Part shown: positions 3,470 to 58,352 of the stretch, one piece after another | Position numbering within the stretch: position 1 is the stretch's first letter | Layout of the letters: each line of letters begins with the position of its first letter | Made by a program: the position numbers and the translations under genes | Assembly (NCBI RefSeq): GCF_027923555.1 | Contig: NZ_AP025523.1 | Span: 1,488,001 to 1,552,000, forward strand | DNA from: Vulcanimicrobium alpinum | Lineage (GTDB): Bacteria; Vulcanimicrobiota; Vulcanimicrobiia; Vulcanimicrobiales; Vulcanimicrobiaceae | Direction: 5' to 3' | Length of the DNA stretch: 64,000 nt | The notes under the pieces: generated by a model | The model's input: only the letters and a program-made list of their open reading frames with translations | Database searches by the model: none | Told to the model about the DNA's origin: nothing

Positions 3470-3600
3470 ATGCCCCGTCAACGTAACCGCACGGGTCGGC
3501 GTTGCGTTTTTCTCAGCCGATGCTTAGGGTATGCTGTTGTGCTCGGAGGCCGCCCGCGGAGTCGGACCTGCTCCGCGCCGCGTTGCCGGATTGTAAAAGG

Positions 3601-36966: not shown

Positions 36967-36967
36967 G

Positions 36968-37390: not shown

Positions 37391-37404
37391 GGTGCGGATG
37401 CTCC

Positions 37405-38904
<1,500 letters not shown>

Positions 38905-38906
38905 TC

Positions 38907-38951
38907 ACGTCCAATACATTCTTCGCGCGGACGCATAAGACGGAGATTATG
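38907..38951. promoter_or_regulatory. CbbR-type box upstream of cbbL (copy A)
   Basis: A 45-base element shared, without gaps, with 56347-56391 in front of the LysR gene (32 of 45 bases identical; the first 13, ACGTCCAATACAT, perfectly). It ends in CATAA-N8-TTATG (38934-38951), which contains TAA-N8-TTA, the TNA-N7/8-TNA form reported for CbbR operators. It lies 3 bases from the outer and 30 bases from the inner candidate cbbL start. Regulatory role is inferred. Confidence 0.7.
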
Positions 38952-39066
38952 TGTCCATCCCGAGTTCCGGGCGGCGTTTGCGAGGTTGGGCCCGAGTGCT
39001 TTCGGTCCACCGTTGCGGGCCATCCGTCGGACCCGGCGCGGCAGGCGATCCGGTTATCCTGAGTCC

Positions 39067-39891
39067 GTGCAGACGCAGACCCTGCCGGCCGTTTCCGTCA
39101 TCGTGCCGACCAAGAACCGGCCGATGGAAATCGCCCGCATGCTCGGATCCCTGCGCGCACAGAAGACGCAGCCCCTCGAGGTCATCGTCGTCGACCAGTC
39201 GACGCCGCGCTACGAGTTGGAACCGTTTGGGGGACTGGTCCATCTGCACGAGCCGGGCCTCTCCGGTTTGACCGCCGCGCGCAATCGCGGCGTCGCCAAA
39301 GCGAACGGCGACGTGCTGCTCTTTTTCGATGATGACGTGCTGCTCGAATCCGACTGCGTTGCCGAGATCGCCGAGCTGTTCGCGCGCCGTCCCGACGTGA
39401 TCGGAGCGCAGTGCGCGATCCACAACCCCTGGGACGACGATCCGCTTTCCCTCTGGGATGTCTCGACGTGGATCTTCGATCACGGATTCTTCTCGTCGCG
39501 GCCGGCACGGCGCGGCGGCGACCAGGTGCCGCGTCTGATCGACGGTCTCGCCTCCGCGTATCGCCGCACGATCTTCGCGCACGAACGCTTCGACGAGCGG
39601 CTCACCGGCTATTGTTTCGCGGAGGATTGGGACTTTACGAAGCGCGCCGCGCGTTACGGGCGGCTCGTGATCGCGGAAGGCGCGCGCGTCGAGCACGTCG
39701 CCTCGCCGGTCAATCGGGCGAACAAGAAACGCTACCTCGAATTGCGCCGCGAGAACATCCTCTATCTGTACGATAAGCTGGAGGCCGGGCGCGATGTCCG
39801 CAATCGCCTCTGGCGAGCCTGGTGGGTTTTCGGCGAACGGCTGCGCGCGATACGGCTGGCGCAGCAAACGCGATCTCTGCAATCCAAGTAG
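39067..39891 (+). CDS. GT2 family glycosyltransferase
   Basis: A 274-residue GT-A enzyme of family 2. VSVIVPTKNRPMEIARML is the nucleotide-binding start and LLFFDDDVLLESDCV the DxD metal site. TGYCFAEDWDFTKRAARYG holds the ED-type catalytic base region. A basic C-terminus follows. There are no membrane helices, so it is cytosolic or peripheral. GTG start at 39067. First gene of the polysaccharide cluster; donor and acceptor unknown. The next GT2 gene begins three bases after its stop. Confidence 0.85.
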   Translation: MQTQTLPAVSVIVPTKNRPMEIARMLGSLRAQKTQPLEVIVVDQSTPRYELEPFGGLVHLHEPGLSGLTAARNRGVAKANGDVLLFFDDDVLLESDCVAEIAELFARRPDVIGAQCAIHNPWDDDPLSLWDVSTWIFDHGFFSSRPARRGGDQVPRLIDGLASAYRRTIFAHERFDERLTGYCFAEDWDFTKRAARYGRLVIAEGARVEHVASPVNRANKKRYLELRRENILYLYDKLEAGRDVRNRLWRAWWVFGERLRAIRLAQQTRSLQSK

Positions 39892-39893
39892 CG

Positions 39894-40907
39894 GTGGAGA
39901 CTTCAGGGGCATCGACCGTGCCTGTCTCCGTCGTCATTCCCGCATACAACGCGGAATCGTTCATCGGTGCGGCGATCGAGAGCGTCCGCGTGCAGACGTC
40001 GCTTCCGGCGGAGGTGATCGTCGTCGACGACGGCTCGACCGATCGGACTGCGGAGATTGCGTCGCAGGCCGGCGCGCGCGTCGTGACGCAGCGCAACAGC
40101 GGACCGTCGGCAGCGAGGAATGCGGGGGTCGACGCGGCATCGTCGCCGTGGATCGCGTTCCTCGATGCCGACGACCGGTGGGCTCCGGACAAACTTGAAA
40201 GCCAGTCGGCGGCGATCTCGCGCTGGCCGGACCTGGGTTTTTGCATCAGCGATTACGCCGTCGTTCAACCGGGCGGGATCGTGGAAGCGTCGCTGTGTGA
40301 GGATCCCGACTACCGGACGATCGGCAGAGAGGCGATCGCCGGTGCCGCCGTCCGCTTCGAACGCAGCTCATTCTTACGCGCGTTCATCCGCTCGATGTTT
40401 CTGCGGCAGTCGTCTGCGCTCGTCAAGCGCGAACTCTTTCTTCAAAGCGGCGGCTACGATTCGCGCTTCCGTCTCGCCGAGGATTACGACCTCTTCCTGC
40501 GCTTGGCAAGCGTCGCGCCGGCGGCGGCGATCGAGCGTCCGTTGGTCGAGTATGTTCGTTCCGCGGATTCGCTCTCTGCCGATCGGCTGGCCGAGATTTG
40601 GTCGATCGACGCGCTTTGGGAATGGATTCTCGCCGCGCCGGAGCGCTATCCGGAGCCGATCGGCGAGCTCGTCGCCCTGCAGCGGGCCGCGACGCTGCGC
40701 CGGGGAGTGCGAATCGCGATGCGGCAGGGCCGGTTTGCAGAGGCCCAACCGTTCCTCGAGAAGCTCCGCGCGATCGATGGGTCGCGCTCAACGGTCGCGC
40801 TCGACATGCTGCTGGGCGCGCTGCGCAGTCCGCTCGGGCGTCCGCTGCACCGAGCCGCGCGCACCATCTGGCGCCTGCGCCCGCGAGGCGCTGGCGCCCG
40901 ATCCTAA
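39894..40907 (+). CDS. GT2 family glycosyltransferase
   Basis: A 337-residue GT-A enzyme. VPVSVVIPAYNAESFIGAAI, VIVVDDGSTDRTAEIA, NSGPSAARNAGVDAA and WIAFLDADDRW (DxD) are classical family-2 blocks. RLAEDYDLFLRLA carries the catalytic-base region. The C-terminal 100 residues are helical. I used the GTG at 39894, two bases after the previous stop; a GTG at 39918 (VPVSVVIP) would also give a full fold. It converges on the acyltransferase at 40936. Confidence 0.87.
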   Translation: METSGASTVPVSVVIPAYNAESFIGAAIESVRVQTSLPAEVIVVDDGSTDRTAEIASQAGARVVTQRNSGPSAARNAGVDAASSPWIAFLDADDRWAPDKLESQSAAISRWPDLGFCISDYAVVQPGGIVEASLCEDPDYRTIGREAIAGAAVRFERSSFLRAFIRSMFLRQSSALVKRELFLQSGGYDSRFRLAEDYDLFLRLASVAPAAAIERPLVEYVRSADSLSADRLAEIWSIDALWEWILAAPERYPEPIGELVALQRAATLRRGVRIAMRQGRFAEAQPFLEKLRAIDGSRSTVALDMLLGALRSPLGRPLHRAARTIWRLRPRGAGARS

Positions 40908-40935
40908 AGGAAAAGCTCCGGCCGTCAGGACTCGA

Positions 40936-42123
40936 TCAGGCGTGCGGCACGGATGCTGCCGGGCGTTCGGGCGCCGGCGCGTCCGGCGCGGCTTCCAACC
41001 GGCTCACCGCGAGCGGAGGCGTCGCGCCGTCGACAGAGCCGATGCGGCGGTTGAGAGCGCGGGTCAGCGGTCGTTCCAGGTAGCGGTAGACCGCGATCCC
41101 GACGAGCATGACGGCCGCGACGAACAGGAGATCGACGACCGCGTGCGCTGCGGCCCCGTGCAGGTGCAGCAGCTCGACGCAACGCCCGAACGCGCTCAAT
41201 ACCGGGACGTGCCACAGGTAGATCGCGTACGAAGCGTCGCCGAGAAGCACGAGCGCGGATGGAGCCTGCCACGACCGAAGTCGCTCGACGCCGACCGCTC
41301 CATACAGCAGCACGGCAAACGGAAGTGCGATGCCGGCGATCTGCGCCCATACGGGAAACTCGACGTGAAGCGGCGAGGCCATCGCGACGAACGCTGCCCC
41401 CAGGACGAGCGTCCCGGCGGCGAGCGCGGTGACCGGTCGGCGGAGCGCGTTCGACATCGTCAGCGCGCCGACGATCATCCCGAAGATGAATTCGAGGGAG
41501 AGCCAGGAGCCGAGCAGCGTGCCGTACGGGTTCGCCGTGAACGATACGAGGTTCGCGGCGACGACGATCGCGAGCACCCACGCGCCGACCACGTACGGCA
41601 AAAACCGCCGCGGCAGCAAGAGCGCGATCGCGAAGACCAGGTAGAACTCCATCTCGAAGACGAGCGACCACGACACTAGCAGCAGCGGATCGCCGGCCTG
41701 CGGCAAGAGCAGGAACGACGCGAGGACGTCGGGCCGGGTCCCGTGCGCGTTGACGAAATCCGGTCGGATGACGTACACGACGAACACCGGTACCAGCACG
41801 AGCCAGTAGGCAGGGTAGACGCGGACCAGCCTCCGCAGGAAAAACCGTATCCCTGCGCGCGGCTTCGCGAACTGATTCCACGTGGTCACTACCATGATGA
41901 AGCCGCTGATGACGAAGAAGAGGTCGACGCCGGCCCATCCGAACCAGCCGAAGACCTGCGTCAGGTCGAGTTCGGGGGATATGTATCGCCGTTCCAATCC
42001 TTGCACGTCGCCCATGTGAAACAGCACGACGAGAAGGGCCGCGATGCCGCGCAGCGCTTGGACGTTTTTAATCACCATCTGCGGCGCGTCCGACGTCGCG
42101 ACGCGATACGGCTGCTCGAGCAC
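40936..42123 (-). CDS. Acyltransferase 3 (OafA/YrhL family)
   Basis: A membrane O-acyltransferase of up to 395 residues with about ten transmembrane helices. NVQALRGIAALLVVLFH contains the conserved arginine and histidine region. GWAGVDLFFVISGFIM is the R/G-D-L-F-F-V-I-S-G signature. SYAIYLWHVPV is the late conserved block. It probably adds acetyl or another acyl group to surface sugars. ATG at 42123 or 42078 (MVIKNVQALRG) could be the start; the latter is nearer to the family norm. Confidence 0.88.
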   Translation of the reverse strand: MLEQPYRVATSDAPQMVIKNVQALRGIAALLVVLFHMGDVQGLERRYISPELDLTQVFGWFGWAGVDLFFVISGFIMVVTTWNQFAKPRAGIRFFLRRLVRVYPAYWLVLVPVFVVYVIRPDFVNAHGTRPDVLASFLLLPQAGDPLLLVSWSLVFEMEFYLVFAIALLLPRRFLPYVVGAWVLAIVVAANLVSFTANPYGTLLGSWLSLEFIFGMIVGALTMSNALRRPVTALAAGTLVLGAAFVAMASPLHVEFPVWAQIAGIALPFAVLLYGAVGVERLRSWQAPSALVLLGDASYAIYLWHVPVLSAFGRCVELLHLHGAAAHAVVDLLFVAAVMLVGIAVYRYLERPLTRALNRRIGSVDGATPPLAVSRLEAAPDAPAPERPAASVPHA

Positions 42124-42165
42124 TTCGCACGCACGGAACGGCTTACGACGTACCCGATTCGTCCA

Positions 42166-43113
42166 TCAGAGCCACCGGGCCGAGGTACGTATTGCCAGCC
42201 GTTCCATCCCGGCTAATTTCAACGCCAGGGCGGCCGGTCCCACGACCAGACCGTGTTTGTTTTTCCAGATCCACGGCGCGAGGACGGCGAGGCACGCGAG
42301 TTTCTGCTGCGCGGTGAGAGGCGCTCGGCCGATGGTCGCGATGTACTCCGTCAGCCAGCGATAATGCGGGCAGTGGTTTTCCCACCGTCCGCGCGCGTTC
42401 GGATCGAACCATGCGGCGCGATCGTCCGGCGTCCGGTTCGCGTTGACCGACGTCCCGGGAAACCAACGCTCGAAAAACAGGACCTCGCGGACTTCGTGAA
42501 CGCGTCCGCGCAGCGCGACCTCCGCCAGCAGGATGACGTCGGCCGACGCGAACCGCCCTAGCACGGGCGTCGATTTGAGCACCGATCCCCGGAAGAGCCC
42601 GAAGACCGGATCGCACATCGAATCGGCGTCGCACAGCTCGTGGAATCGGCGCCACCGCGCCACGGGGTCGGTCTCCGGAAGGTCGAGGCTATCGGTGAAG
42701 GTATCGATGATGCGCCCGTGTTCGTCGATCCGGCTCATCTGCGGATAGCAGAGGGAGATGCCGTCGTCGGCCTCCATGACTTCGACGCAGCGCTCGATAT
42801 TCGTCGGGGCCAGAACGTCGTCGTACGCGGCGTGGCGGATATACTTGCCGCGCGAGAGTTCGGTCACGCGGTTGTAGTTGTACGAGGCGCCCATATTGCG
42901 TTCGTTCCGAACGTAGCGAACCCGCGGATCGCGCGCTGCGTACTCGAGGCAGATCGCATTCGTCGCGTCGGTCGACGCATTGTCCGAGATGATCAGTTCG
43001 AAGTCCGTAAACGTCTGGGCGAGAATCGAATCGATTGCTTCGCGGAGAAACCGCTCTCCGTTATAGACGGGCAGGCCGATCGAGACGAGCGGCGTCCGTT
43101 CTGTGGTCGTCAT
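42166..43113 (-). CDS. GT2 family glycosyltransferase
   Basis: A 315-residue GT-A enzyme. PLVSIGLPVYNGERFLREAI, FELIISDNASTDATNAICLE and YIRHAAYDDVLAPTNIERCV are family-2 blocks, with AAYDD in the place of DxD. CYPQMSRIDEHGRIIDTF follows. No membrane helix. The ATG at 43113 overlaps the upstream beta-propeller gene by four bases, so the two are co-translated. Sugar specificity unknown. Confidence 0.85.
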   Translation of the reverse strand: MTTTERTPLVSIGLPVYNGERFLREAIDSILAQTFTDFELIISDNASTDATNAICLEYAARDPRVRYVRNERNMGASYNYNRVTELSRGKYIRHAAYDDVLAPTNIERCVEVMEADDGISLCYPQMSRIDEHGRIIDTFTDSLDLPETDPVARWRRFHELCDADSMCDPVFGLFRGSVLKSTPVLGRFASADVILLAEVALRGRVHEVREVLFFERWFPGTSVNANRTPDDRAAWFDPNARGRWENHCPHYRWLTEYIATIGRAPLTAQQKLACLAVLAPWIWKNKHGLVVGPAALALKLAGMERLAIRTSARWL

Positions 43114-44693
43114 GACGGTTGGAAAACCTGTGGGGCGGCGGAGGTGTGCGAAGGTTGGGACGACGTGCGGCGCAGCCGCCGAACGTCGGAACGGAGAATC
43201 GCCAAGGTGGCGGCCGGGTCGAAGACGCGGTCCTTGCCGTCGACGACGCAGAGACCATCGCGCAGCGCGAAGGTATGCAGACCGTGCCGTCCGCGACCGT
43301 GCGCCGGCGGTGCGACGTGGGCCACGACGGTTTCCCGGTAGGCGCTCGGCGTGAGCACGTCGACGCGCGCAATCGCGACGCGAGCGCCGTAGTCGTCGGA
43401 GCAGTCTTGCGCGGGGCGATAGAGGACGCCGTCGATGACGAACGGCGTACCGGCGGGACGCGCGCAGCGCACGTCGCGGACGATGGGGTTGAGCGGATGC
43501 GCGTCCCACGGACCGTCGAGCGTCGCCGCGTGGAAGAGCAGCAGTTCCCCGTTGTTGTCGACGGCATCGTCGGTGATGAACAGCCACCACCGATCGTCGC
43601 GGCGCAGGAGCGTCGGGTCGACCGCAGCCACGCCTTCGATCAGCACGCGCGCTTCGCGCAAGCCGGCGCTCGTGACCTCGTACAGCGCGACGCGACGTGC
43701 CTGCGATTGCTCCGGCATCACGTACCGCGATGTGCCGTCCTCGACGACGTACGGGTAGGAGAGGTGATGGTCGAGGCGCGCGAGATCTCGCGGAGGTCCG
43801 CAAACGCGGCCGCCCTCCAGCGGCACGCGCGCGAGGTAGCCGCGATCGCGCCCGTAATCGTATCCCTCGCACAGCACTTCGAAGCGGCCGCCGGAAGCGA
43901 AGGGGAACGGATCGGCCCAGAAATGCCCCCGCGGGAGATCCAGCCAGGAGATCTGCGCCGCGGTCCCGGAGACGATCGCTGCGGGGTCGGTCCGCAGAAC
44001 TCCAAGGCGCCAGCGGTCGTGGACGAGCCGCCGCACGACCGCGTGTCGGCCGCGGCGAAGTGCGCAGCGAATCGACAGGAGCGCGGCTCGACGAGCGCTG
44101 ATCCGCGCCGCGTTGGGCGCGGGCGGCGCTAGCCGCTGCTCCGCGACGGCCGCGCGGGAACGCCGTACGGCGTCGGCCGGAAGCGAGACCGCGAGATCGA
44201 CGACGCGCCGCAGCGTGCTGCGGTAAGACGTGCGGTCGACGAGCGTCGCTGCGGTGGTGATGACGGTGCGCTCCGACGCACCGACACGCTCGACGCGGAC
44301 CTCGGCGACAGGTGCTCCTCGCTCGACGAGATCGAACGCGGGCGGATCTCCGGGCAGCACGACTTCCCACATGCCCCATCGGGCGCGCAGCAGAAACTCG
44401 GGAACCGCCGCCTGCGCGAAGATCAGCACCGCATCGAGGTGGGCGGCGCGTTCCGGCGAGACGATCGGCGGAGCGTCCCATCGCACCGGCGCGAAGGCGG
44501 CGGCGATGCCGGACGCGAGGCGCGCCGCCGGCGGCGGCAGCGGCGCGGGACCTTCGTCCTTCCGCGCCGCAAAGCGCGCGACGATCGCCGCGCCGTTGGC
44601 GCGAAGCCGGTCGAGGGCATCGCGCTGCCAGGCGTAGACGAGGTCACCGGCGACGACGCCGAGACGGGCGGTTTCCACAGGCATCTCCCGCAA
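43110..44693 (-). CDS. Two-domain protein with GIPC-transferase-like beta-propeller
   Basis: A 527-residue soluble protein. The first about 220 residues (start TARLGVVAGDLVYAWQRDAL) resemble the formyltransferase-like N-terminal part found in some such proteins. The last about 300 form a GH43-like five-blade propeller: GHFWADPFPFASGGRFEVLC, HLSYPYVVEDG, VDPTLLRRDDRWWLFITDD and CARPAGTPFVIDG. The pattern matches the domain named after plant glucosamine inositolphosphorylceramide transferase 1. It may transfer or trim a sugar on the surface glycan; no activity can be assigned. Coupled to the following GT2. Confidence 0.65.
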   Translation of the reverse strand: MREMPVETARLGVVAGDLVYAWQRDALDRLRANGAAIVARFAARKDEGPAPLPPPAARLASGIAAAFAPVRWDAPPIVSPERAAHLDAVLIFAQAAVPEFLLRARWGMWEVVLPGDPPAFDLVERGAPVAEVRVERVGASERTVITTAATLVDRTSYRSTLRRVVDLAVSLPADAVRRSRAAVAEQRLAPPAPNAARISARRAALLSIRCALRRGRHAVVRRLVHDRWRLGVLRTDPAAIVSGTAAQISWLDLPRGHFWADPFPFASGGRFEVLCEGYDYGRDRGYLARVPLEGGRVCGPPRDLARLDHHLSYPYVVEDGTSRYVMPEQSQARRVALYEVTSAGLREARVLIEGVAAVDPTLLRRDDRWWLFITDDAVDNNGELLLFHAATLDGPWDAHPLNPIVRDVRCARPAGTPFVIDGVLYRPAQDCSDDYGARVAIARVDVLTPSAYRETVVAHVAPPAHGRGRHGLHTFALRDGLCVVDGKDRVFDPAATLAILRSDVRRLRRTSSQPSHTSAAPQVFQPS

Positions 44694-44794
44694 CGATAAG
44701 CGATCGGGCGTCGGGCGTGCATCGGGGCCCCGGACCCGCCCTGCAGGACCTTTGGGGGCTCCCAGGACCCCCGGGGAAGCCGTAGCATCGGCAC

Positions 44795-45895
44795 GTGGAA
44801 GCCCGCTCCCCCGGCCAGGCGCCGATTCGAGTTGTCCATCTGGTCGACGTGATGGGCACGGCGAAGCTGTGGGGCAAGGAGCGGGCGATCGCGACGCTGA
44901 TGGAGCGTCAGCGGCAAGCCGGGCTCGTTCCGCAGCTCGTGACCTTCACCGCCAATGCGCTCGTCGATACGCTGGCGGCAGCCGGCTATCGAACTGCGGT
45001 CCTCGGCAGCCGCAAGCGGCGCGTTCCGGTCGGCGCGTTCGCATCGCTGATGCGCCTGCTGCGCGCCGAACCTGCGACCGTGCTCCACACGCACGGGTAC
45101 AAGGCGAATATCGTGGGTCGCGCCGCGCGCGCCGCCGGCGCGCCGATCGGCCGGCTCGTCGCGACCGTCCACGGGATGAACGACGAAACCCTCGCGCTCA
45201 CGTTCTACCATCGTCTCGACCGCTGGAGCGCCCCGCTCAGCCACGCGGTCGCCCTCGCGGACGCAAGTCTCGCTCCCTCGTTTCCGCGTTCCGCCCGGGT
45301 CGGGTTCGTCGCGAACGCGATTCCCAACCGGGCCGCGTTCACGGCGGCCGAGCGCGATGCCGCGCGGCGCCGGTTCAATCTCGCCGGCGATGCGTTCGTC
45401 GTCGGGCTGCTGGGGCGGGTGACGGCTGCAAAGGGCGCCCTCGACGCGCTGGCGGTGGCCCGCGCATGCCGCGACCCGCGCATCGTGTTCGTCTTCGCCG
45501 GCGACGGCGAGGTCGCGCTCCGTGCGGACGTCCCGGAGAACGTCCGGTTTCTCGGCTACGTCGAGAATTCCGACGGCTATCTTCCGGCGCTCGACGTGTA
45601 TCTGCAGGCGTCGCACTTCGAAGGCCTCAGCCTCGCCCTGCTCGAGGCGATGCGCGGCGGCCTGGCATGCATAGCGACCGACGTGGGTTCGACCGATCGT
45701 GCGATCGACGACGGACGAACCGGTCTGCTCGTTCCGGCGCACGATCGCGTCAAGATCGCCGAAGCGATCGAACGGCTCGCTGCGAGTGACGACGACCGGA
45801 CCCGCCTTGCCGCCGCGGCCCGGAACCGTTTCATCACCGACTTCACGATCGAACCGCACTACCGTGCGTATCAGGAACTCTACGGCTTGAGTTGA
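44795..45895 (+). CDS. GT4 family glycosyltransferase
   Basis: A 366-residue GT-B enzyme. VVHLVDVMGTAKLWGKERAI starts the N-terminal Rossmann domain and TVLHTHGYKANIVGR lies in it. The C-terminal donor domain has FVVGLLGRVTAAKGALDAL, VFVFAGDGEV and HFEGLSLALLEAMRGGLACI, with the E-x7-E retaining motif. GTG start at 44795 in a 101-base gap from the divergent propeller gene. The end overlaps the convergent GT2 by 16 bases. Confidence 0.9.
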   Translation: MEARSPGQAPIRVVHLVDVMGTAKLWGKERAIATLMERQRQAGLVPQLVTFTANALVDTLAAAGYRTAVLGSRKRRVPVGAFASLMRLLRAEPATVLHTHGYKANIVGRAARAAGAPIGRLVATVHGMNDETLALTFYHRLDRWSAPLSHAVALADASLAPSFPRSARVGFVANAIPNRAAFTAAERDAARRRFNLAGDAFVVGLLGRVTAAKGALDALAVARACRDPRIVFVFAGDGEVALRADVPENVRFLGYVENSDGYLPALDVYLQASHFEGLSLALLEAMRGGLACIATDVGSTDRAIDDGRTGLLVPAHDRVKIAEAIERLAASDDDRTRLAAAARNRFITDFTIEPHYRAYQELYGLS

Positions 45896-46842
45896 CGCGC
45901 CGCGGCGGCGAGTGCGCCGATCGGTGACGCGCAGAGCCGCCCGAGCACGACCCAGCCGCGGAGTAGGTCGCGCCGGCGCGTAAAGCCGGCAACGAGGCTG
46001 CGCGCTTCGCGATGGCGTCCCCAGTAGGTCATCACGCACGCTGCTTTGCCGGCGCGCAACGCCAGGGCGTCGTCGAGCAGCGGACGCAGCTCCGGTTTCG
46101 CGCAGGCGCGCAACTCGGCCGCGCCGACGAAGAGCGGTTCGAGCGGACGGGCACGCCGGCGGACGTTGAGGGCCGAGCACTCGAGATATTTGGTCGCCAA
46201 GTCCGCGAGCACAAGCTGGATCGCACCGGAAAACACGAGCTTGAACGCGAGGAAGGCATCCTCGCCGTAAACGCAGCGATCGCGCTCGTAGAAGCCGCCT
46301 ACGCGCACGACGTCGGCCCGGCGCACGACGATCGTGCATGGATCCATGAACGCAACCAACGCGACGACAAACGGTGCGGGCGTCTCCGGCACGATACGCG
46401 CGAGCCCGTCACGCAGCCCTTCGCGCAGACGCCGCGGCAGCAGCGAACGCCGCTCCGTCCGGTACGAGCAGACCGCCGCGACGGCTTCCGGCTGCGCGTC
46501 GAGGCGCGCGATCATCCGTTCCAGATAGGTCGGGTCCCAGGTGTCGTCCGCATCGAGAAACGCGACGTACTCCCCGGACGCATGCGCGATCCCGCGATTT
46601 CGTGCAGCGCCGGGGCCGGCATTCGCTTGGCGGATCAGCCGGAAACGCGGATCGCCGAGCGCCGCGACGGCGGCATCGCCGCCGTCGGTGGAACCGTCGT
46701 CGACGACGATCGCCTCCAGGTCGCGATGCGTCTGATTCGCGATCGACGCCAAACTGCGCGCGACGCTCGGCGCCTTGTTGAACAGCGGGACGATCACCGA
46801 AACGCGAGGCGCTGCGACCTTCGCCGCCGGCTCATCGGACAT
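45880..46842 (-). CDS. GT2 family glycosyltransferase
   Basis: A 320-residue GT-A enzyme. RVSVIVPLFNKAPSVARSLA, AIVVDDGSTDGGDAAV, NAGPGAARNRGIAHASGEYV and AFLDADDTWDPTYLERM are family-2 hallmarks. RCVYGEDAFLAFKLVFSGA is the base region. Its ATG at 46842 overlaps the end of the upstream GT-C gene by 11 bases, so they share a transcript. Specificity unknown. Confidence 0.88.
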   Translation of the reverse strand: MSDEPAAKVAAPRVSVIVPLFNKAPSVARSLASIANQTHRDLEAIVVDDGSTDGGDAAVAALGDPRFRLIRQANAGPGAARNRGIAHASGEYVAFLDADDTWDPTYLERMIARLDAQPEAVAAVCSYRTERRSLLPRRLREGLRDGLARIVPETPAPFVVALVAFMDPCTIVVRRADVVRVGGFYERDRCVYGEDAFLAFKLVFSGAIQLVLADLATKYLECSALNVRRRARPLEPLFVGAAELRACAKPELRPLLDDALALRAGKAACVMTYWGRHREARSLVAGFTRRRDLLRGWVVLGRLCASPIGALAAAARQLKP

Positions 46843-48532: not shown

Positions 48533-48716
48533 GCAGGGAATGTAGCGTTGCCGCTCGCGGGTCGCCAGGGCGGAAGGTCACGGTCTGTTGCCCCGCTCCG
48601 CCCGTGGCGTTCCGCCTGCGAAGTGTCGGCCGGACGGCCGTGCTGGGCCTCCGGTCTGCAGGCGAGGCCGCGCGACCCATGGCCGGCGGGACCCCATTTG
48701 CTATGATCGCCGGACA

Positions 48717-49856
48717 GTGTCCGGGCAGGCGAAGAATTCCGAGGCCGTCCACCTCGACCACGTCGACGGCCTGCGCGCGATCGCGGTCCTCGGGGTCGTG
48801 CTCTATCACGGCGTCGTGCACTCGACGTGGCCCCTGTACGTTCAAGGCTTGGCCGCCTCGGGAAGCCACGGGGTCGAGCTGTTCTTCGTGATCAGCGGCC
48901 TGTGTCTGGCGTTCCCGTTTCTGCGATCATATCACCGCAGCGGCGACCTGGGCTTCACGGCGAGCGCGTTTTTCGCAAAGCGCGCGGTCCGCATCTTGCC
49001 GCCGTATTACGTCGTGCTCGTCCTGTTCGGGCTGGCGGCGCTGACGGCGCTATGGCGAGCAGCAGCGGCGCGCGAACCGCAGGGGATGACCCCGCATCTG
49101 ACGCTGCCGAGCTTTGCGGCGCACTTCGTATTCGCGGCACGGATGGAGCAGTTGCTCGACGCCTCGTTCTGGACGCTGCGCGTGGAGGCGATCTGGTATC
49201 TGCTCTTCCCGCTCGCGCTCTTGGCCTACGTGCGCGCGCGGCGCGTCTTCTGGCTCGTTGCCGCGGCATGCCCTCTCGCCGTCCTGCTCAACTTGCGCAT
49301 CCCGGGCTTCGGCACGTCGCTCACGATGCTGGTCGCGCTGCCGGCATTCTTGCTCGGCATCGTCGCGGCCGACTGGCTTCTGCGGCGGCGCACCGCGCCG
49401 GCGTGGCTAATCGGTTTGGGCGTCGTTGCGGCGGTCGTCGCCGCCGTGTGGGAGTTTCGGCATCCGGATATCGACAACGTCCGGGTACGCATCCTGTGGG
49501 ATTTCGCCGCCTTCGCGTTCGTCGTGCTCGTGAGTCGCTCGCCAGCGATCCGGTCGGCGATTTCGACGCGTGCCGCGATCGCGGTCGGCGTCGCATCGTA
49601 CAGCATCTATCTGATCCACGAGCCGGTCGTCGTGATCGCCGAATATCTCCACGTGCCGCCGCCTCTCGCATGTGTTGTCGGCGTTGCGTTCGGGTTCGCC
49701 TTGTGGTGGCTCGTCGAGCGCACGTTCACGTCGGATCGCGTCCGTCGTCCGATGGTGGCGTTCGTTGAGAGAATGTTTTCTCGCGCGGCTGGCTGGCGCG
49801 CAGTTCGTGGTGCCCCCGCGCCCGCTCCGGCCGCGGCCGTCGAAGCGCCGCAATAG
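48717..49856 (+). CDS. Acyltransferase 3 (OafA/YrhL family)
   Basis: A 379-residue membrane O-acyltransferase. HLDHVDGLRAIAVLGVVLYH and SHGVELFFVISGLCLAFPF are the two signature blocks, RVEAIWYLLFPLAL the middle one and SYSIYLIHEPV the late one. About ten helices, then a proline/alanine-rich tail. The start is GTG at 48717. A TATGAT at 48701-48706 sits only ten bases before it, so the transcript could be leaderless; no ribosome site is evident. Confidence 0.88.
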   Translation: MSGQAKNSEAVHLDHVDGLRAIAVLGVVLYHGVVHSTWPLYVQGLAASGSHGVELFFVISGLCLAFPFLRSYHRSGDLGFTASAFFAKRAVRILPPYYVVLVLFGLAALTALWRAAAAREPQGMTPHLTLPSFAAHFVFAARMEQLLDASFWTLRVEAIWYLLFPLALLAYVRARRVFWLVAAACPLAVLLNLRIPGFGTSLTMLVALPAFLLGIVAADWLLRRRTAPAWLIGLGVVAAVVAAVWEFRHPDIDNVRVRILWDFAAFAFVVLVSRSPAIRSAISTRAAIAVGVASYSIYLIHEPVVVIAEYLHVPPPLACVVGVAFGFALWWLVERTFTSDRVRRPMVAFVERMFSRAAGWRAVRGAPAPAPAAAVEAPQ

Positions 49857-49883
49857 CGCAAACCCGAATCCCGGCCCGCTGAA

Positions 49884-49903
49884 CGCCGCGCCGTAGCGCG
49901 GCG
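49884..49903 (+). terminator. Terminator-like hairpin after the acyltransferase gene
   Basis: CGCCGCGC-CGTA-GCGCGGCG, a perfect 8-bp GC stem with a 4-base loop, 28 bases after the stop. It has no U-tract. A second 8-bp hairpin (TGCGATCT-CCGC-AGATCGCA) lies at 49934-49953. Confidence 0.4.
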
Positions 49904-49969
49904 CCGTTCGCGCGCGTAAACGCACGTATGCGCTGCGATCTCCGCAGATCGCACGCGCGTGGTATTTGC

Positions 49970-49983
49970 ACGCGTTAACGCGT
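49970..49983. promoter_or_regulatory. 14-bp perfect palindrome
   Basis: ACGCGTTAACGCGT reads the same on both strands. It overlaps a weak promoter-like TTGCAC and lies about 300 bases before the secreted-protein genes. A dimeric repressor site is possible, but no partner copy was seen. Confidence 0.35.
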
Positions 49984-50287
49984 CGTTCAACATACCTTTC
50001 GCGCACGAAAGCGTCTGCGACACCGCGTCAATTCTCGCTGCGGGTCGATGTGTTGAACTTCACAGCGGCCGGGAGCAGGTAAGACTTCCGCTCCGGTGTG
50101 CCGATGTAAAGAAAACGGAAAGCGCAGAGCGCCGTACGCTCTCGGCTGAGTTCGACGAACGTCGCACGTGAGGCAGCGCACACGCGTCCTTCGATGGTCG
50201 CGCCTCGAATGCCGTGAGTTTCATCCACGCTCATATTTTGGCTCGTTGAGACGAGCTTGTTTCGACACGCGCCGGAGGGACCGTCCC

Positions 50288-52168
50288 CTGTATTTTCATG
50301 TACGACTCCCGGTTTCGGCACTCGCATTGTCGCTCATTGTAACCGCGTGCAGCGGTGGCGGAAGTAGTTTGGCTCCGCCCGTCCGATCGAACGCGCTCAG
50401 CCCCGCGTCCGTCGACGTGGTGATCAGCATCCCGGCGGTCACGACGAGTTCGTCGTCGCGGAGCACGTCGTCACTCTCCGGCACGAAGTCCGCGTCCATC
50501 GCCGTCGCCGGCAACACGAGCGTGGTGGATTGCACCTCGACCTGTTCGGCGTCGCAAACGGTCCCCGCCGGCATTCAGACGTTCGTCGCAACGCTGTATG
50601 ATGGGCCGCGCGCAACGGGCAACGTTCTGGGCACGGGTCAAGCAACGACGATGATCCTGAGCGGACAGAAGAATTCCGTCAATCTCACGTTCGGAGGCGT
50701 GGTCAAGAGCGTTGCCGTGCTGGTCAACCCGACCGACATCGCGCCCGGTGCGCCGGCTAATGTCGCGGTCACCGTCGCCGCAAAAGACGCGTCCGGCTTC
50801 ACGATCGTCGGCGGCGATCCGTACAGCACGCCGATCCGGCTGACCAGCGACGACGCGAGCGGGGCGACGGCGCTCTCGACGACCGAGATCAGCTCGCCGT
50901 CGGCACAGGTCACCCTCGCCTACAACGGGTCCACGTCCACGTCCGCGGTCAGCATCGGGGCAACGGTCCCCGATCCGTCGGTCAGCATCTCTCCCGGCAC
51001 GTTGAAGATCCACCGAGGTGCTCCGTCACCGGCACCCAGCAGCACGCCGACACCGGCACCGACGCCGTCGCATACGGCGTCGCCGACGACTGCGCCGACG
51101 TCGGCGCCGGTCGGTGCGCCGGCGAACGCGTCGGAGTGGCCGACCGGATTCCGCCCGTACTCGGCAAGCTCGATCTGGAATACGAAGCTGACGAACACCA
51201 CGAGCCCCGTGCAGCTCACCAACAGTGCGGCGATCGTAGCGAACATTGGGTTCCACTACACGCCGATCAGTCTGAACACGCAAGAGTTCGGCGGCCTCGA
51301 CGACGTGTCGCACCCGGTCGTGTTTGCAAGCGCGTCGGATCCGCTGGTCACCGCGCAGTGCGTGCAGTACTGCTCGGGCTGGAGCACATCGTACTCCCCC
51401 GGCGTGACCGGAGGCTTCGGCCAGATCCGTATTCCGGCGAAGGCGCGACCGAGCGGCAGTACCGATCACCACCTCGCCGTGATCCAGCCGGACGGTACCG
51501 AGATCGACATGTGGGCCGTCATTCCGCCGTCGCGCGATTGGCAGACCGGCGACACGATCCAATTCGGCGACGGCCAGAACCAGGGCAACTTCTACACCGG
51601 CGAGGGTCAGGCCGGTCTGAGCGGAACGGCGTCCAACGCCGCAACCGCGGGCGGCGCGGCGCTGGCCGCGGGGTTGATCCGGGAAAGCGAATTGGCCAGT
51701 CACCTCATCCCGCACGCGCTCTTTCTGGCGAGCGGATGCGTCGGCGTCGCTCACGTCTATCCCGCGATTCAGAACGGCGACAACACCTGCAACGGCTCCG
51801 GCGCGCAGGTGCCGTTCGGCGCACACTTCTGGTTCTCGATGAGCGACTCGGCGATCGACGGACTCTCGAACGTCAGCACCGATCAGAAGACGATCCTGCA
51901 CGCCTTGCATCAGTACGGCGGCTACGTCATGGACTCCGGCGGTAACACGACGCTAGCGTACACCGACGGCATCGCCGCGTATCTGGAGGACGGCACGCAG
52001 TTCAGTCCGTTCGGGGTAACTCCGCCGCTCGATTCGTACGCGCGGTCGGTCGGATGGCCGACGCAGATGGTCCAGGTCATGGAGTACTACCAGAGCGACA
52101 ACTCGGGATTGAACTGGGCGCAGTTCTTCCAGATCCTCGATCCCTGTTACGCGCAGAAGACCTGCTGA
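50288..52168 (+). CDS. Secreted lipoprotein with linker and unknown catalytic-like domain (paralog 1)
   Basis: A protein of about 626 residues. A hydrophobic signal ends in a lipobox (LIVTAC). Residues about 35-270 are Ser/Thr-rich beta domains (VAVLVNPTDIAPGAPANVAV, like an Ig fold), then a Pro/Ser/Thr linker (SPAPSSTPTPAPTPSHTASP). The last about 330 residues, from GFRPYSASSIWNT, form the domain shared with the next gene: TDHHLAVIQPDGTEIDMW, AGGAALAAGLIRESEL, HLIPHALFL, FGAHFWFSM. The start is uncertain: CTG at 50288 has GGAGGGA seven bases upstream and gives a proper signal peptide; a GTG at 50168 is the nearest ordinary start. Function unknown. Confidence 0.7.
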   Translation: MYFHVRLPVSALALSLIVTACSGGGSSLAPPVRSNALSPASVDVVISIPAVTTSSSSRSTSSLSGTKSASIAVAGNTSVVDCTSTCSASQTVPAGIQTFVATLYDGPRATGNVLGTGQATTMILSGQKNSVNLTFGGVVKSVAVLVNPTDIAPGAPANVAVTVAAKDASGFTIVGGDPYSTPIRLTSDDASGATALSTTEISSPSAQVTLAYNGSTSTSAVSIGATVPDPSVSISPGTLKIHRGAPSPAPSSTPTPAPTPSHTASPTTAPTSAPVGAPANASEWPTGFRPYSASSIWNTKLTNTTSPVQLTNSAAIVANIGFHYTPISLNTQEFGGLDDVSHPVVFASASDPLVTAQCVQYCSGWSTSYSPGVTGGFGQIRIPAKARPSGSTDHHLAVIQPDGTEIDMWAVIPPSRDWQTGDTIQFGDGQNQGNFYTGEGQAGLSGTASNAATAGGAALAAGLIRESELASHLIPHALFLASGCVGVAHVYPAIQNGDNTCNGSGAQVPFGAHFWFSMSDSAIDGLSNVSTDQKTILHALHQYGGYVMDSGGNTTLAYTDGIAAYLEDGTQFSPFGVTPPLDSYARSVGWPTQMVQVMEYYQSDNSGLNWAQFFQILDPCYAQKTC

Positions 52169-52274
52169 ACGTTGCAGGGGGCGGGCTTTACAGCCGGCCC
52201 CCTGCGTACGCGTGGGACGGAAGCGTGCGGTGTCCGAGGACCGGTGCCGATGTCGGGCAAAACCTCGGCGCACA

Positions 52275-53456
52275 ATGATCTCTTCGCGCACCGTGCTCGG
52301 GGCTGTCGCCGGCAGCGTCATCGCGAGCGTCATCCTTACTGCGATGCCGCCGGCTCGGATTCCGGGCGCGGCGGCAGCGTCGTCGAAGCGCAGCGCTCTG
52401 CGGAACGGCGTCGAGTGGCCGGTTGGTTTCCGGCCGTACGCTTCCAGCTCGATTTGGAACACTCGGGTGCGAAACCTGACGCATCCGCGACTGCTTCCCG
52501 ACTCCGCGCAGATCATCGCGGTCGCGCAGGCGGACCACAACAAATCACCCGCCGGGTCGTTGCGGACGCAAGAGTACGGTGCGACCGACGCCGTCTCTCA
52601 CCCCATCGTGTTCGCGACGTCGGACGATCCGCTCGTCCGCACCGCGTGCACCCGCTACTGCAACGATTGGGGAAAGAACGGGGTCGGCACCCCGCCGCGT
52701 ATTCGCATCCCGCGCAAAGCACGTCCGGCGACGTGCTGCGATCATCATCTTGCGGTCGTGCAGCCGAACGGCGACGAAATCGATCTCTGGGACGTCCACG
52801 ACCTTCCCGGGCGAGACTGGCAGACCGGCGATACCATCGCGTTCAGCAACGGACAGAACGCCGGCAGTTTCTTCTCCGGTCGCGGACAGATGGGCAACGG
52901 GCTGCCCGACAATGCCGCAACCGCCGGCGGCGCCGCACTCGCGGCCGGCCTGATTCGCGAGAGCGAACTCGCGACGCACAGCATCCCGCATGCACTGTTC
53001 ATGCTGACGAACTGTGTGGCGAAGCGGCACGTCTATCCGGCGATCCAGGACGGTGACACGATCTGCTCTGGTGCCGGCCCGCACACGCCGTTCGGCGCGC
53101 ATATCTGGTTCTCGATGAGCGACGCCGCCATCGACGCCCTTCCCGGCTCGGCGGATACGAAGACGGTGATGCACGCGCTGCACCGCTACGGCGGCTACAT
53201 CATGGACAGCGCGCAAGGCAACATGGACCACACCGACGGCTACGTGGTGATGCTCGAAGAGGGTGCGCAATTCGAACCCTTCGGCGTTCCTTCGCCGATG
53301 ACGGTGTACGCGCGCACGCACAGCTGGTCGCACTCACCGATGGCATCGAGGATCGCGCCCTACGTTACGGAATACGCGCTCCCGGATACAACGGGCGTGA
53401 ATTGGTCGCGGTACTTGCGAATCCTCGACGTCTGTTACGCAGAGAGAACCTGCTGA
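52275..53456 (+). CDS. Secreted protein sharing the same domain (paralog 2)
   Basis: A 393-residue exported protein with signal segment TVLGAVAGSVIASVILTAMP and no linker. From GFRPYASSSIWNTRV it aligns end to end with the C-terminal domain of the preceding gene: CCDHHLAVVQPNGDEIDLW, DWQTGDTIAFSNGQNAGSFF, AGGAALAAGLIRESELATHS, IPHALFM, FGAHIWFSM, HRYGGYIMDS, and the same final CYAERTC versus CYAQKTC. Conserved histidines, aspartates and paired cysteines suggest a disulfide-bonded extracellular enzyme or binding domain. ATG at 52275. The 3' end overlaps the convergent O-antigen ligase gene by 92 bases. Confidence 0.78.
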   Translation: MISSRTVLGAVAGSVIASVILTAMPPARIPGAAAASSKRSALRNGVEWPVGFRPYASSSIWNTRVRNLTHPRLLPDSAQIIAVAQADHNKSPAGSLRTQEYGATDAVSHPIVFATSDDPLVRTACTRYCNDWGKNGVGTPPRIRIPRKARPATCCDHHLAVVQPNGDEIDLWDVHDLPGRDWQTGDTIAFSNGQNAGSFFSGRGQMGNGLPDNAATAGGAALAAGLIRESELATHSIPHALFMLTNCVAKRHVYPAIQDGDTICSGAGPHTPFGAHIWFSMSDAAIDALPGSADTKTVMHALHRYGGYIMDSAQGNMDHTDGYVVMLEEGAQFEPFGVPSPMTVYARTHSWSHSPMASRIAPYVTEYALPDTTGVNWSRYLRILDVCYAERTC

Positions 53457-54843
53457 ATCCGAGCGCATACGGGTGAGGGGCGGGTTCGTCAAGCCGGGCT
53501 TCCGCCGCTCGAACCGTCCGCGAGCGGTACGCGGCGTGCACGATCCAGGCCGCAGACATCGACAGCCACGTGTACTTGAAGGTCACGAAGTCCAGCGACA
53601 TTGCGGCGACGAAGAGTGCGATCGTGTTTGCCTCGATCGCAAACCGCGCATCGGTCCACCCGCCCTCGTGTAATCCGATCCGCCGAAGGGTTCGGAATTG
53701 CCACCACCAGGCGAGCAGGAGCAGGGCGAGTCCCACGAGCCCGAGCTCGACGCCGAACTGGACGAGGATATTGTGCGATTGCTGGATGCGCTGGGCGGTT
53801 GCGACCGACTGCGAATACTCCAGAAACGAGGCCTGATAGGCGGCGAGAAACGAGCCGAACCCGTGACCGGCTAGCCAGCGGTGCTTGAACGCTGCAAAAC
53901 CGATGTGCCAGATCTGATATCGGCCGGAGGCGTCGCTGGTCGTCGGATCGTTGAAGCGGGCAAAGACACCGGGGATGAGGGCGAGCATCGCGACGCCGGC
54001 GAGCACCGCCCCGATCAGTTGCTTGCGGTGCGGCGACCGAACGATGAGATACGCGACGCCGAAGCCGAACGAGATCAGCGCGCCGCGTGATTCCGTGATG
54101 CCGATGCCCGCGACGCAGATGACCGCCGCCAGCGCACACAGGGTGACGCGCACGGGTTCGCGGAGCGAGATCGCGGCTGCCGTCGCGGCGAGGGCCGGCA
54201 GGATCAGCGCCGCGCCGAAATGGTTGTGGTCGATGGAGTTGATATAGATCCACTGGCCCGTCGCGGAGTGCACCATGATGGCGAAGATGCTCGCGGCCGT
54301 GCCGCCGCCGACGACGCCGCAAAAGAGCGCGATCAGATCGGTTTCGTCGGCGGGAACCATCGCGATGATCGCGCCCACGGCAAGCAGGCCGCCGAGCATC
54401 TGCAGCATGAGGGTGCCGAGCGCGGTGTCTTCCGTCCACCACAAACTCGCGATGGCGAACGCCGTCAGCAGGAGCCAGCCGCCCACCGCAGCCGACGGGA
54501 TGAGCCCTCTGCGGCGAACGAGCATCGAGATGATCGCAGCCAGAGCGGCCGCCGCCCCCAGCGGTTTCGCGATCTTTCCGATCCCCGGCAGCACCAGCAG
54601 GTTGTCGAACGGGACCAGCGCCGCCCAAAGCGCATACGGGAAGATGAGCGGGCGTTCGATGGCGAGCGCGATCGCAACGGGTGCGAGAGCCAGCGCGACG
54701 GCAGCCTCGATCCCGAACGTGCTCCCCGAGAACGGAATCATCGGCGCGCCGGCGATCATCGCGGCCGCGAGCGCTCCTGCGAGGAAGTAGGCGACGGCGA
54801 CCATGCGGCCGTACTGACGTGGCCGTCCGACCGCTGTCCTCAT
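53365..54843 (-). CDS. O-antigen ligase / polymerase (Wzy_C family)
   Basis: A 492-residue integral membrane protein with about twelve helices. The periplasmic loop bears RYQIWHIGFAAFKHRWLAGH with the G-x-G-F segment, then SHNILVQFGVELGLVGLALL, the Wzy_C signature. SRGALISFGFGVAYL is another family block. It would join polysaccharide to lipid A core or polymerise it. The ATG overlaps the flippase stop by four bases. The basic C-terminal tail runs 92 bases into the 3' end of the opposite gene. Confidence 0.85.
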   Translation of the reverse strand: MRTAVGRPRQYGRMVAVAYFLAGALAAAMIAGAPMIPFSGSTFGIEAAVALALAPVAIALAIERPLIFPYALWAALVPFDNLLVLPGIGKIAKPLGAAAALAAIISMLVRRRGLIPSAAVGGWLLLTAFAIASLWWTEDTALGTLMLQMLGGLLAVGAIIAMVPADETDLIALFCGVVGGGTAASIFAIMVHSATGQWIYINSIDHNHFGAALILPALAATAAAISLREPVRVTLCALAAVICVAGIGITESRGALISFGFGVAYLIVRSPHRKQLIGAVLAGVAMLALIPGVFARFNDPTTSDASGRYQIWHIGFAAFKHRWLAGHGFGSFLAAYQASFLEYSQSVATAQRIQQSHNILVQFGVELGLVGLALLLLAWWWQFRTLRRIGLHEGGWTDARFAIEANTIALFVAAMSLDFVTFKYTWLSMSAAWIVHAAYRSRTVRAAEARLDEPAPHPYALGFSRFSLRNRRRGFASTATNSRPLYPGARIP

Positions 54844-56159
54844 GCCGCCGCCTCACTCGGACCGATCGCGTCCCGGCGGCGCCGTTCCACGAATCGGATC
54901 ACCTCGCGCGCGATCGCCCGTGCGTCGTCGACCCGCGGGATGAACAGCGCGGAGAGCGGCAGGCGCAGGGTTCGCGCGACGATGAGGGCTTTCACCATCA
55001 CCACGCCCGCGTACGATGCTGCCGTCGCGACTGCCGCGCCGGCCAGGCCGAACGCCGGGATCGTCGCAAACGCGATCGCCGCGCACGCCGCCGCCGAGAT
55101 GAGCTGGATCGCGAGGACCAGCATCGGCCGTTTGCACCGCACGAGGAGGAAATACCCCAAAACCGGCTCGATCGCATACGCCGCAATCCCGAGCACCATG
55201 ATGCGCAACGGCAGGCCGGCACCCGCGAACGACGAGCCGTACACGTGAACGATCAGCCAAGGACCGGCGATGAAGAGAAACGCGGCGAGCACCGATTCCA
55301 TCAGCACGATGGTCCGGGTCAGACGACCGACCAGCAACCGCACGCGTTCGTCGTCTTCGCCCGCGATGCGCCCGAAGGCGCTCCAGGAGATTGCGTTGCT
55401 GATCTTCCAGAGCAGCTCGGAAACGCTCACGGCGATCGTGAAGACGCCGAGCGCCGCCGGGCCGAGCACCCCGGCGACCACGAACAGACCCATGCGCAAG
55501 TTTACATATCCGACGCCGAAAACGATCCCGGATTTCCCGCCGAACACGAACTGGTCGCGCGCGAGGGCAACCGGCTCGCCGTGCTTCGTTGCGTTGGGCA
55601 GCGCGGGCGCGCGTTCGAGCGAGATCGCGGCGTAAACGGCGGACACGACGTACGCAGCCGCCCAGGCGGCAAGCGCGCCGACGATCCCGCCTCCGAGCAG
55701 GACGACGGCCGAACCGAGTATTGCGGAACACGTGACTGCGACGAGGTCGATGAAGTTGGCCTTAGCAATGCGGCTTTCGGCGAGGAAGAAACCCTTCACG
55801 CACTGCGCGTAGATCGCGAACGGCAGCGCGCACGCGACCGCGAGCAGCGGTCCTTGCCCGCGAAGCGTGAGCGCTGCGACGATGAATCCGCAGGTGGCCG
55901 GAACGATCAGCACCGGCAGCGACCACAGCATCGCGCGGTGGACGTCGGGGCGGCGAATCTTGTCGGTCGCATACTGGGCGACGACGGCGGCCGCCGGACC
56001 CTCGGCGTAGACGGAGACGAGGCCGAGCACGAGCCAAGCGTAGGACACGAGGCCTCGGCCGGTGGGTCCGAGCACGCGCGCAAGCACCACGCCGAGGGCG
56101 ATCACGGCGAGCGTGCCGAGCGCCTGCGTCACGAGCGTATGCAGCGCTCTACCGAACAC
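54840..56159 (-). CDS. Polysaccharide flippase (Wzx-type, MOP superfamily)
   Basis: A 439-residue membrane protein with about twelve helices. GRALHTLVTQALGTLAVIAL and ARVLGPTGRGLVSYAWLVLG are the standard Wzx N-terminal signature. It would flip undecaprenyl-linked oligosaccharide across the inner membrane. A soluble basic tail ends the chain. First gene of a flippase-ligase operon at the end of the polysaccharide cluster. Confidence 0.88.
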   Translation of the reverse strand: MFGRALHTLVTQALGTLAVIALGVVLARVLGPTGRGLVSYAWLVLGLVSVYAEGPAAAVVAQYATDKIRRPDVHRAMLWSLPVLIVPATCGFIVAALTLRGQGPLLAVACALPFAIYAQCVKGFFLAESRIAKANFIDLVAVTCSAILGSAVVLLGGGIVGALAAWAAAYVVSAVYAAISLERAPALPNATKHGEPVALARDQFVFGGKSGIVFGVGYVNLRMGLFVVAGVLGPAALGVFTIAVSVSELLWKISNAISWSAFGRIAGEDDERVRLLVGRLTRTIVLMESVLAAFLFIAGPWLIVHVYGSSFAGAGLPLRIMVLGIAAYAIEPVLGYFLLVRCKRPMLVLAIQLISAAACAAIAFATIPAFGLAGAAVATAASYAGVVMVKALIVARTLRLPLSALFIPRVDDARAIAREVIRFVERRRRDAIGPSEAAA

Positions 56160-56346
56160 GCGCCGTTACTCTTTGACGAAACAACTGATCACTTTCGGAG
56201 GCGGGACGGCAAGCAGAACCATTGGCCGGACCGCTTCGAGCGTAGGCCCTCGAGGCGTCCGCAGAAAGAACCCGCGGAACTCCGCTACGGGACGTTGGTC
56301 ACGGGACTACCGGCAACCCCTTGTCGGCGCTCCTTGGGACGCATTG

Positions 56347-56391
56347 ACGTCCAATACATACCTTGCGTAGATTCATAAGAACCGTCTTATG
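56347..56391. promoter_or_regulatory. CbbR-type box upstream of the LysR gene (copy B)
   Basis: The second copy of the 45-base element described at 38907-38951, in the same orientation. Its end is a perfect inverted repeat CATAAGA-ACCG-TCTTATG (56374-56391); the last ATG is the LysR start codon. TTGACG at 56344-56349, an 18-base spacer and TAGATT at 56368-56373 make a candidate promoter that lies within the element. Binding of the regulator here would block its own expression (inference). Confidence 0.7.
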
Positions 56392-57258
56392 TTCTCACTC
56401 CACCAGTTGCGGACGTTCCTGGAAGTGGCCCGGACCGGCTCGGTGCGGGAAGCCGCCGAGCACCTCGTCGTCTCGCAGCCGGCCGTCTCGGCGGCGCTAG
56501 CGTCGCTCCAGCGCGCCGTCGGCGCCCCGGTGGTCGAACGGGATGGGAGGGGTCTGCGCATCACGCCGGCGGGCGAGCGTCTCGCGAACTACGGCCGGCA
56601 GATCGTCGCGCTGCTCGATGAAGCCGTGGTGGAGGCGCGCGCGGCCGCGCGGGCCGGCTCGACGCGGGTGCGGCTGGCGGTCGTCACCACGGCGGCGGAG
56701 CAGCTCGTCCCGGCCCTGCTGACGGGGTTCGCCGCGGCGCCGGACGCGCCGGCCGTCGAACTGCGGGTCGCCAACCGCGAGGCCGTCTGGGATCTGCTCG
56801 CTCACGGCGAGGTCGATCTCGTCCTGGGCGGGCGGCCGCCCGACGACCGGTTCGTCAGCTGGGCGCGGCGACCCAACGCGCTGGTCGTTGTCCGAGCGCG
56901 GCAGGCGGCGGACGCGCCGCTCGGCGCGGCGACGTGGCTCGTGCGCGAGCCGGGCAGCGGAACTCGCGCGACGACCGATGCGCTCTTCGAGGCGCTGGCG
57001 ATCGCGCCGCCCAGCGTCACGATCGGCTCGAATGCGGCGATCCTGGGCTGCGTGCGCGCGGGGCTTGGCGTCTCGCTGCTCTCGCGCGGCGCGCTCGCGC
57101 GCGACCTGACCGCCGGCGACGTCGTCGAGATCTCCACCGCGCAGACGCCGCTGCAGCGCGACTGGCATCTCTCCGCGGCGCGCGATCGCGCGCCGACCGA
57201 CGGTGCACGGCGGTTCGTCGAGCACGTGCTGCGCGCGGGAGCGTTCGCCGCGTCGTGA
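56389..57258 (+). CDS. cbbR: LysR-family regulator, probable CbbR
   Basis: A 289-residue LysR-type activator. The winged helix-turn-helix is LHQLRTFLEVARTGSVREAA then EHLVVSQPAVSAALASLQRA. The co-inducer domain (about 90-289) has LAVVTTAAEQLVPALLTGFA and GSGTRATTDALFEA. The cbb assignment rests on the 45-base box it shares with cbbL and on the nearby phosphoribulokinase. The ATG is inside an operator-like palindrome, so the mRNA has almost no leader. It is followed after 16 bases by the sensor kinase. Confidence 0.82.
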   Translation: MFSLHQLRTFLEVARTGSVREAAEHLVVSQPAVSAALASLQRAVGAPVVERDGRGLRITPAGERLANYGRQIVALLDEAVVEARAAARAGSTRVRLAVVTTAAEQLVPALLTGFAAAPDAPAVELRVANREAVWDLLAHGEVDLVLGGRPPDDRFVSWARRPNALVVVRARQAADAPLGAATWLVREPGSGTRATTDALFEALAIAPPSVTIGSNAAILGCVRAGLGVSLLSRGALARDLTAGDVVEISTAQTPLQRDWHLSAARDRAPTDGARRFVEHVLRAGAFAAS

Positions 57259-58342: not shown

Positions 58343-58352
58343 TGGTGACCGC

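Follow-up and report, generated by a model that had tools for sequence, protein, structure and literature searches.

A close known counterpart of the locus analyzed here is cbb1 of Acidithiobacillus ferrooxidans, in which cbbR and cbbL are divergent and their promoters are overlapped by CbbR sites of the TNA-N7-TNA/T-N11-A type (PMC2942843). Other CbbR operators consist of two half sites, of which one serves recognition and lies around −65, while the other serves activation and lies close to the −35 of the target (PMC2942843). For a cultured strain that is likely the host of the present DNA, expression of cbbL was reported as unexplained (PMC9758169). According to the same paper, its RuBisCO is of type IE, provided that the genome is that of the strain described there (Vulcanimicrobium alpinus WC8-2). 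The nearest named relatives of the genome are mostly Eremiobacterota assemblies, and our literature search found no paper naming CbbR and Eremiobacterota together.

In the 64-kb window—the whole stretch of 64,000 nucleotides that was analyzed—a 45-bp element stands upstream of cbbL and again upstream of a LysR-type regulator gene. As in A. ferrooxidans, several cbb operons per genome carry such sites. The primary sequence differs, being GTCMAATACA-N16-ATAA-N8-TTATG with a TNA spacing of 8. In contrast to cbb1, the cbbR start codon lies inside the recognition repeat, and the operator is doubled in this genome, with its copies 17.4 kb apart. LysR relatives that are likewise divergent from a closely related cbbL occur in Actinomycetota and in a few Chloroflexota and Dormibacterota. 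In some of these loci a related motif is recognizable (24–37 in the best eight loci). The motif has diverged, several loci having GTCTATTGA instead of GTCAAATAC; homologues of the glycan cluster that separates the two copies here are absent from all 80 nearest LysR loci. Two Eremiobacterota, G062 and G064, resemble the window in having a separate operator at each gene. There, however, the gap between the genes measures about 170 bp, or about 1 kb where it holds a single dehydrogenase gene, and it contains no glycan cluster.

The reading that we favor, with a probability of roughly 85%, is that the element is the CbbR operator of cbbL and cbbR genes that were once adjacent, that the 17.4-kb cluster was inserted between them, and that each gene now has its own predicted operator.

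The element and its anatomy

The two copies (Table 1) align without gaps at 32 of 45 positions on the same strand. The similarity reaches 9 nt further to the left, where the extended copies share 39 of 54 positions. Elsewhere in the window, the next best place reaches 26/45 for the left copy and 24/45 for the right one. Both copies end in an 18-bp CATAA...TTATG inverted repeat with TAA-N8-TTA in each, a repeat of the TNA-N7/8-TNA/T-N11-A type (consensus from PMC2942843) upstream of cbbL. With cbbL on the minus and the LysR gene on the plus strand, the two genes point away from each other across the island. The earlier note, made from the letters of the window, had described the match, the terminal repeat, and this orientation in the same way, and realignment bears it out on all three.

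Across the complete genome (3,508,363 bp, single contig), the exact core ACGTCCAATACAT-N14-CATAAG has two matches, both at this locus. Allowing three mismatches adds one site, between a transketolase gene, named by reading its sequence, and a class I aldolase gene, named by Pfam (tkt–fba). The genome-wide search was by pattern, and the scan of the 64-kb window was by a scoring matrix built from 12 sites of relatives, with the data of this genome left out. By this matrix, the right copy ranks first (40.5) and the left copy second (36.9), while the next place scores 2.3 and the best place on the reversed window −1.9. Elements from seven of eight relatives, taken one by one, also have the two copies as their two top places in the window, in register. 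Of 12 genomes that possess cbb genes, 10 contain the pattern when two mismatches are allowed; the six genus mates without cbbL and the reversed controls have no hit. The earlier note would have given up its reading for many genomic copies unrelated to cbb genes; the sole further copy found stands at other Calvin-cycle genes. A match by chance or low complexity has in its favor that short AT-rich motifs can recur and nothing else, and the genome-wide search, the reversed control, and the independent matrix speak against it, leaving it a negligible probability. The similarity of the two copies is far beyond chance.

The inverted repeat CATAAG-N7-TTATG is centered upstream of its target genes, at 65.5 nt from the likely start codon of cbbL and at 66.5 nt from that of fba. 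In the right copy, its TTATG includes the LysR start codon. Besides the inverted repeat, the operator sequence includes GTCCAATACA, and GTCMAATACA overlaps a putative −35 of cbbL. Spacing and half-site layout fit the two-site scheme of other CbbR operators: CATAAG-N7-TTATG would serve for recognition at a distance of about 65 bp before the target start, and GTCMAATACA would be the activation half overlapping the −35 of the target. By sequence and context, the 45-bp element is a probable CbbR operator of the Eremiobacterota Calvin-cycle locus.

Table 1 Features of the locus in window coordinates (promoter elements and operators are predictions)
Feature	Position	Strand	Basis or remark
cbbX, RuBisCO activase	36091..37020	-	TIGR02880 above cut-off
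cbbS, RuBisCO small subunit	36968..37405	-	PF00101
cbbL, RuBisCO large subunit	37405..38877 (ORF to 38904; start probably 38877)	-	PF00016/PF02788
Putative -10, GATGAT, of the left copy's outward promoter toward cbbL	38884..38889	-	consensus match
Left predicted CbbR operator (W_L)	38907..38951 (38898-38951 with weaker extension)	+	upstream of cbbL
Putative -35 of cbbL, TGGACG	38908-38913	-	overlapped by proximal half
Proximal activation-type half GTCCAATACAT	38909..38919	+	GTCMAATACA conserved in relatives
Distal recognition-type inverted repeat CATAAG-N7-TTATG, left copy	38934..38951	+	sequence
Glycan cluster, 17,395 bp	38952..56346	.	absent from the cbbL–cbbR gap of relatives
Glycosyltransferases	~39067-39891, 39822-40907, 42166-43125 (-)		Pfam
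Glycosyltransferases	~44795-45895 (by reading and G091 relative), 45880-46842 (-; Pfam)		
Acyltransferases	40936-42123 (-), 48588-49856		Pfam
Wzy-type protein	53365-54843	-	Pfam
Flippase-like protein	54840-56159	-	Pfam
Putative cbbR promoter	56344..56373	+	TTGACG (56344-56349), 18-nt spacer, TAGATT (56368-56373)
Right predicted CbbR operator (W_R)	56347..56391 (56338-56391 extended)	+	overlaps cbbR start codon
Inverted repeat CATAAG-N7-TTATG, right copy	56374..56391	+	contains cbbR ATG; relatives share register
LysR-type regulator, called cbbR	56389..57258	+	HTH_1 and LysR_substrate
LytS-type histidine kinase and LytTR response regulator	57275..59078	+	adjoins cbbR in three relatives from two other genera as well
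Phosphoribulokinase, right-flank Calvin-cycle gene	60870..61790	+	PF00485; NF005655 above cut-off

The LysR protein matches PF00126 and PF03466 above cut-off and, hence, has the LysR-type helix-turn-helix and substrate-binding domains. Its nearest relatives adjoin type I cbbL, and its best match in the PDB is titled 'Rubisco operon transcriptional regulator'. Among all NCBIfam models, the CbbR model NF045990 scores best with 155.9 bits but stays far below its cut-off of 450, which may be narrow, as the model name points to the Rhodobacter-type CbbR. The name CbbR is accordingly one of gene context and predicted regulon rather than of family cut-off: as the LysR genes of relatives adjoin cbbL, we call this gene cbbR and the element its putative operator. 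In the tree, the branch of this CbbR is about twice as long as those of its nearest relatives (0.59 versus 0.25–0.30).

Order of cbbL and cbbR in relatives

cbbL lies divergent within about 300 bp of the LysR gene in 32 of the 80 nearest loci, which is the gene context expected of a CbbR. The two genes are adjacent and divergent in seven relatives—G091 of the same genus, G086, G075, G028, G029, G024, and G025—and in 27 further loci, mostly of Actinomycetota. Five Eremiobacterota carry a single copy of the element in the gap between cbbL and cbbR, with the cbbR start codon inside its inverted repeat; in the Eremiobacterota relatives, the LysR start codon falls exactly at the end of the 45 nt. 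In G024 the genes are adjacent but no good element lies between them (best score 9.4). The cbbL of the window is 74–82% identical to the best copies in relatives. On the right flank, the LysR gene is followed by the LytS-type kinase, the LytTR regulator, a 2-hydroxyacid dehydrogenase, and phosphoribulokinase, and G086, G024, and G025 have the order cbbL/cbbR–kinase–regulator that is found here on the two flanks. The earlier note had proposed that cbbR and cbbL were once neighbors sharing one operator, and had suggested looking in relatives for the divergent pair without glycan genes. The seven relatives show it, the single copy in the gap of five Eremiobacterota supports the shared operator, and the opposite outcome, with cbbR elsewhere in all cluster-free relatives, was not seen.

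In G062 and G064, which the CbbR tree places in a clade of their own with support of 99/97, cbbR is turned to the direction of cbbL, and each gene has one operator, of which the cbbL-side copy in G062 is weak (three mismatches to the pattern). As judged from these sequences, there are at least two cases in which the genes no longer diverge and each has a predicted operator of its own. At a further locus, G058 (L084, upstream of 10001), cbbR is not divergent from a neighboring cbbL, and only the inverted-repeat half is present, with GTCAAATACA missing.

Within the genus, the cbb genes of G091 stand in another context, with a fructose-1,6-bisphosphatase gene after cbbR. This weakens the same-genus comparison, and the insertion is hence not datable within the genus. 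In two genus mates without cbbL, G088 and G093, comB is directly beside the kinase gene. Since genus mates without cbbL have comB adjoining the kinase gene or close to it, the interval is variable within the genus, changing by loss or gain. That much would be compatible with a separated, cluster-bearing arrangement as the ancestral state, from which the relatives lost the cluster. Such a history would need many independent losses at the same point, given the seven relatives and 27 loci with adjacent genes, and is barely plausible. As observations of their own, the LytS/LytTR pair persists in genus mates without cbbL, and in G093 (L069, G093:C5:12500-32499) a phosphoribulokinase gene (3371-4288, 72% identity) lies near the kinase–regulator pair, with no match to cbbL. 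It looks as if RuBisCO was lost there and phosphoribulokinase kept.

The glycan cluster and the origin of the layout

Apart from the genes named in Table 1, no function was assigned to the ORFs of the cluster. Two neighboring proteins of 666 and 414 aa (50168–53456) are mutually related, their DNA being 80% identical along 109 nt; neither belongs to a Pfam or NCBIfam family by its matches. As for signs of a transposon or integrative element, there is no recombinase among the ORFs scanned, no tRNA, and no terminal repeat besides the operator. The G+C content is 67.3% in the cluster versus 68.3% outside, which gives no compositional mark of insertion. The closest counterpart (67–75% identity, the value for the first glycosyltransferase being approximate, as its query protein began out of frame) is found in G091 of the same genus, on contigs C26 and C274, which carry no cbb genes. 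With the cluster of G091 lying away from its adjacent cbbL–cbbR pair, and with the gene order of G086, G024, and G025, insertion is the simplest account.

The promoter arms of the elements were scored with an E. coli sigma-70 matrix, so that the values describe a match to that consensus. The outward arm of the right copy, toward cbbR, scores 9.5, a value reached by 0.1% of random window segments, and the outward arm of the left copy, toward cbbL, is moderate with 4.6. The inward arms score −0.9 and −1.4, reached by 36% and 63% of random segments, respectively. Two good arms on one element are found in G091 (7.0/6.9), G086 (8.5/5.0), and G075 (8.4/7.1); the cbbR arm is weak in two relatives, G029 (0.3) and G064 (−3.7). 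By these consensus scores, the pattern suggests a complementary loss, with the outward promoter alone retained in either copy.

This bears on whether the flanking operators place the glycan cluster under CbbR. Roughly 115 bp separate the left copy from the start of the first glycan gene, which lies where the former cbbR promoter pointed, and roughly 188 bp separate the right copy from the flippase gene, which lies where the former cbbL promoter pointed. If CbbR did act here from operators 17.4 kb apart, polysaccharide synthesis could follow CO2 fixation in this lineage. Yet both arms that face the glycan genes look like background, and most genes of the cluster lie away from its ends, which makes such a coupling very unlikely.

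According to the favored insertion reading, an ancestor would have carried one element between divergent cbbL and cbbR, serving both genes by activation of cbbL in one direction and autoregulation of cbbR in the other. In this lineage, the glycan cluster would then have come to lie between them, and each copy would have lost the promoter toward the cluster and kept the one toward its cbb gene. The glycan genes would not be expected under CbbR. The locus might, thus, be a natural example of a two-way regulatory site replaced by two one-way sites once the genes it served had moved apart.

How the operator came to be doubled can be approached through the similarity of the copies. The two window copies agree at 22 of the 23 conserved columns and at 10 of the 22 variable ones; between genomes, the variable columns agree at 6.7 on average and at 12 at most. 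Their likeness thus resides mainly at binding positions and is no proof of a recent duplication, although an old one is compatible with it. The earlier note had the cluster between two copies of the intergenic sequence through either insertion or duplication. Insertion is supported; the variable columns do not demonstrate that the intergenic sequence was duplicated recently.

Insertion and doubling might have happened in a single event if the cluster recombined into the operator, perhaps as a circle that carried an operator copy, and left direct repeats behind. The repeats are indeed direct and at the two ends of the island, they share the short extension, and their 32/45 slightly exceeds the similarity between genomes (mean 26.4, maximum 31). 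We consider this rather unlikely, however: the agreement in variable columns lies inside the between-genome range, another same-genome pair of operators, in G075, reaches 36/45 without flanking an island, and there is no residual cbbR or cbbL coding sequence beside the copies. In the last respect, neither leftover cbbR coding to the right of the left copy nor cbbL coding to the left of the right copy rises above shuffles (p = 0.15 and 0.19). The ATG in the left copy was tried as a cbbR relic and rejected on the same ground; it is also not counted as such because the tkt–fba site, without any cbbR, ends in TTATG as well.

An even chance is given to the other order of events, in which doubling of the operator, or the separate gain of a second operator by one gene, preceded the arrival of the cluster between two functional operators. 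New sites do arise, as operators occur singly at other targets, and G062 and G064 show an operator at each gene in the absence of a glycan cluster. On the other side, the lineage of the window itself yielded no intermediate, and the divergent relatives tested carry one copy only. The third genomic copy at tkt–fba and the separate clade with one operator per gene argue that the element is not an insertion scar. It looks like a functional site present once per predicted CbbR target, and its presence at both ends of the cluster is not in itself a trace of insertion.

Predicted targets at other genes

The sites at Calvin-cycle genes form a predicted CbbR regulon. For Eremiobacterota, this provides a concrete operator sequence and a small set of predicted targets—cbbL, cbbR, and fba/tkt—to which relatives add a second cbbL and a dehydrogenase. 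The element stands at an aldolase gene (fba) in G091 and at a second cbbL in G086. In G075 (L196, G075:C49:4327-7369), a CbbR-type operator at 1501-1543 lies upstream of a gene of the 3-hydroxyisobutyrate-dehydrogenase type. This gene is possibly a CbbR target related to photorespiration, and G062 has one of the same Pfam type in the interval from cbbR to cbbL.
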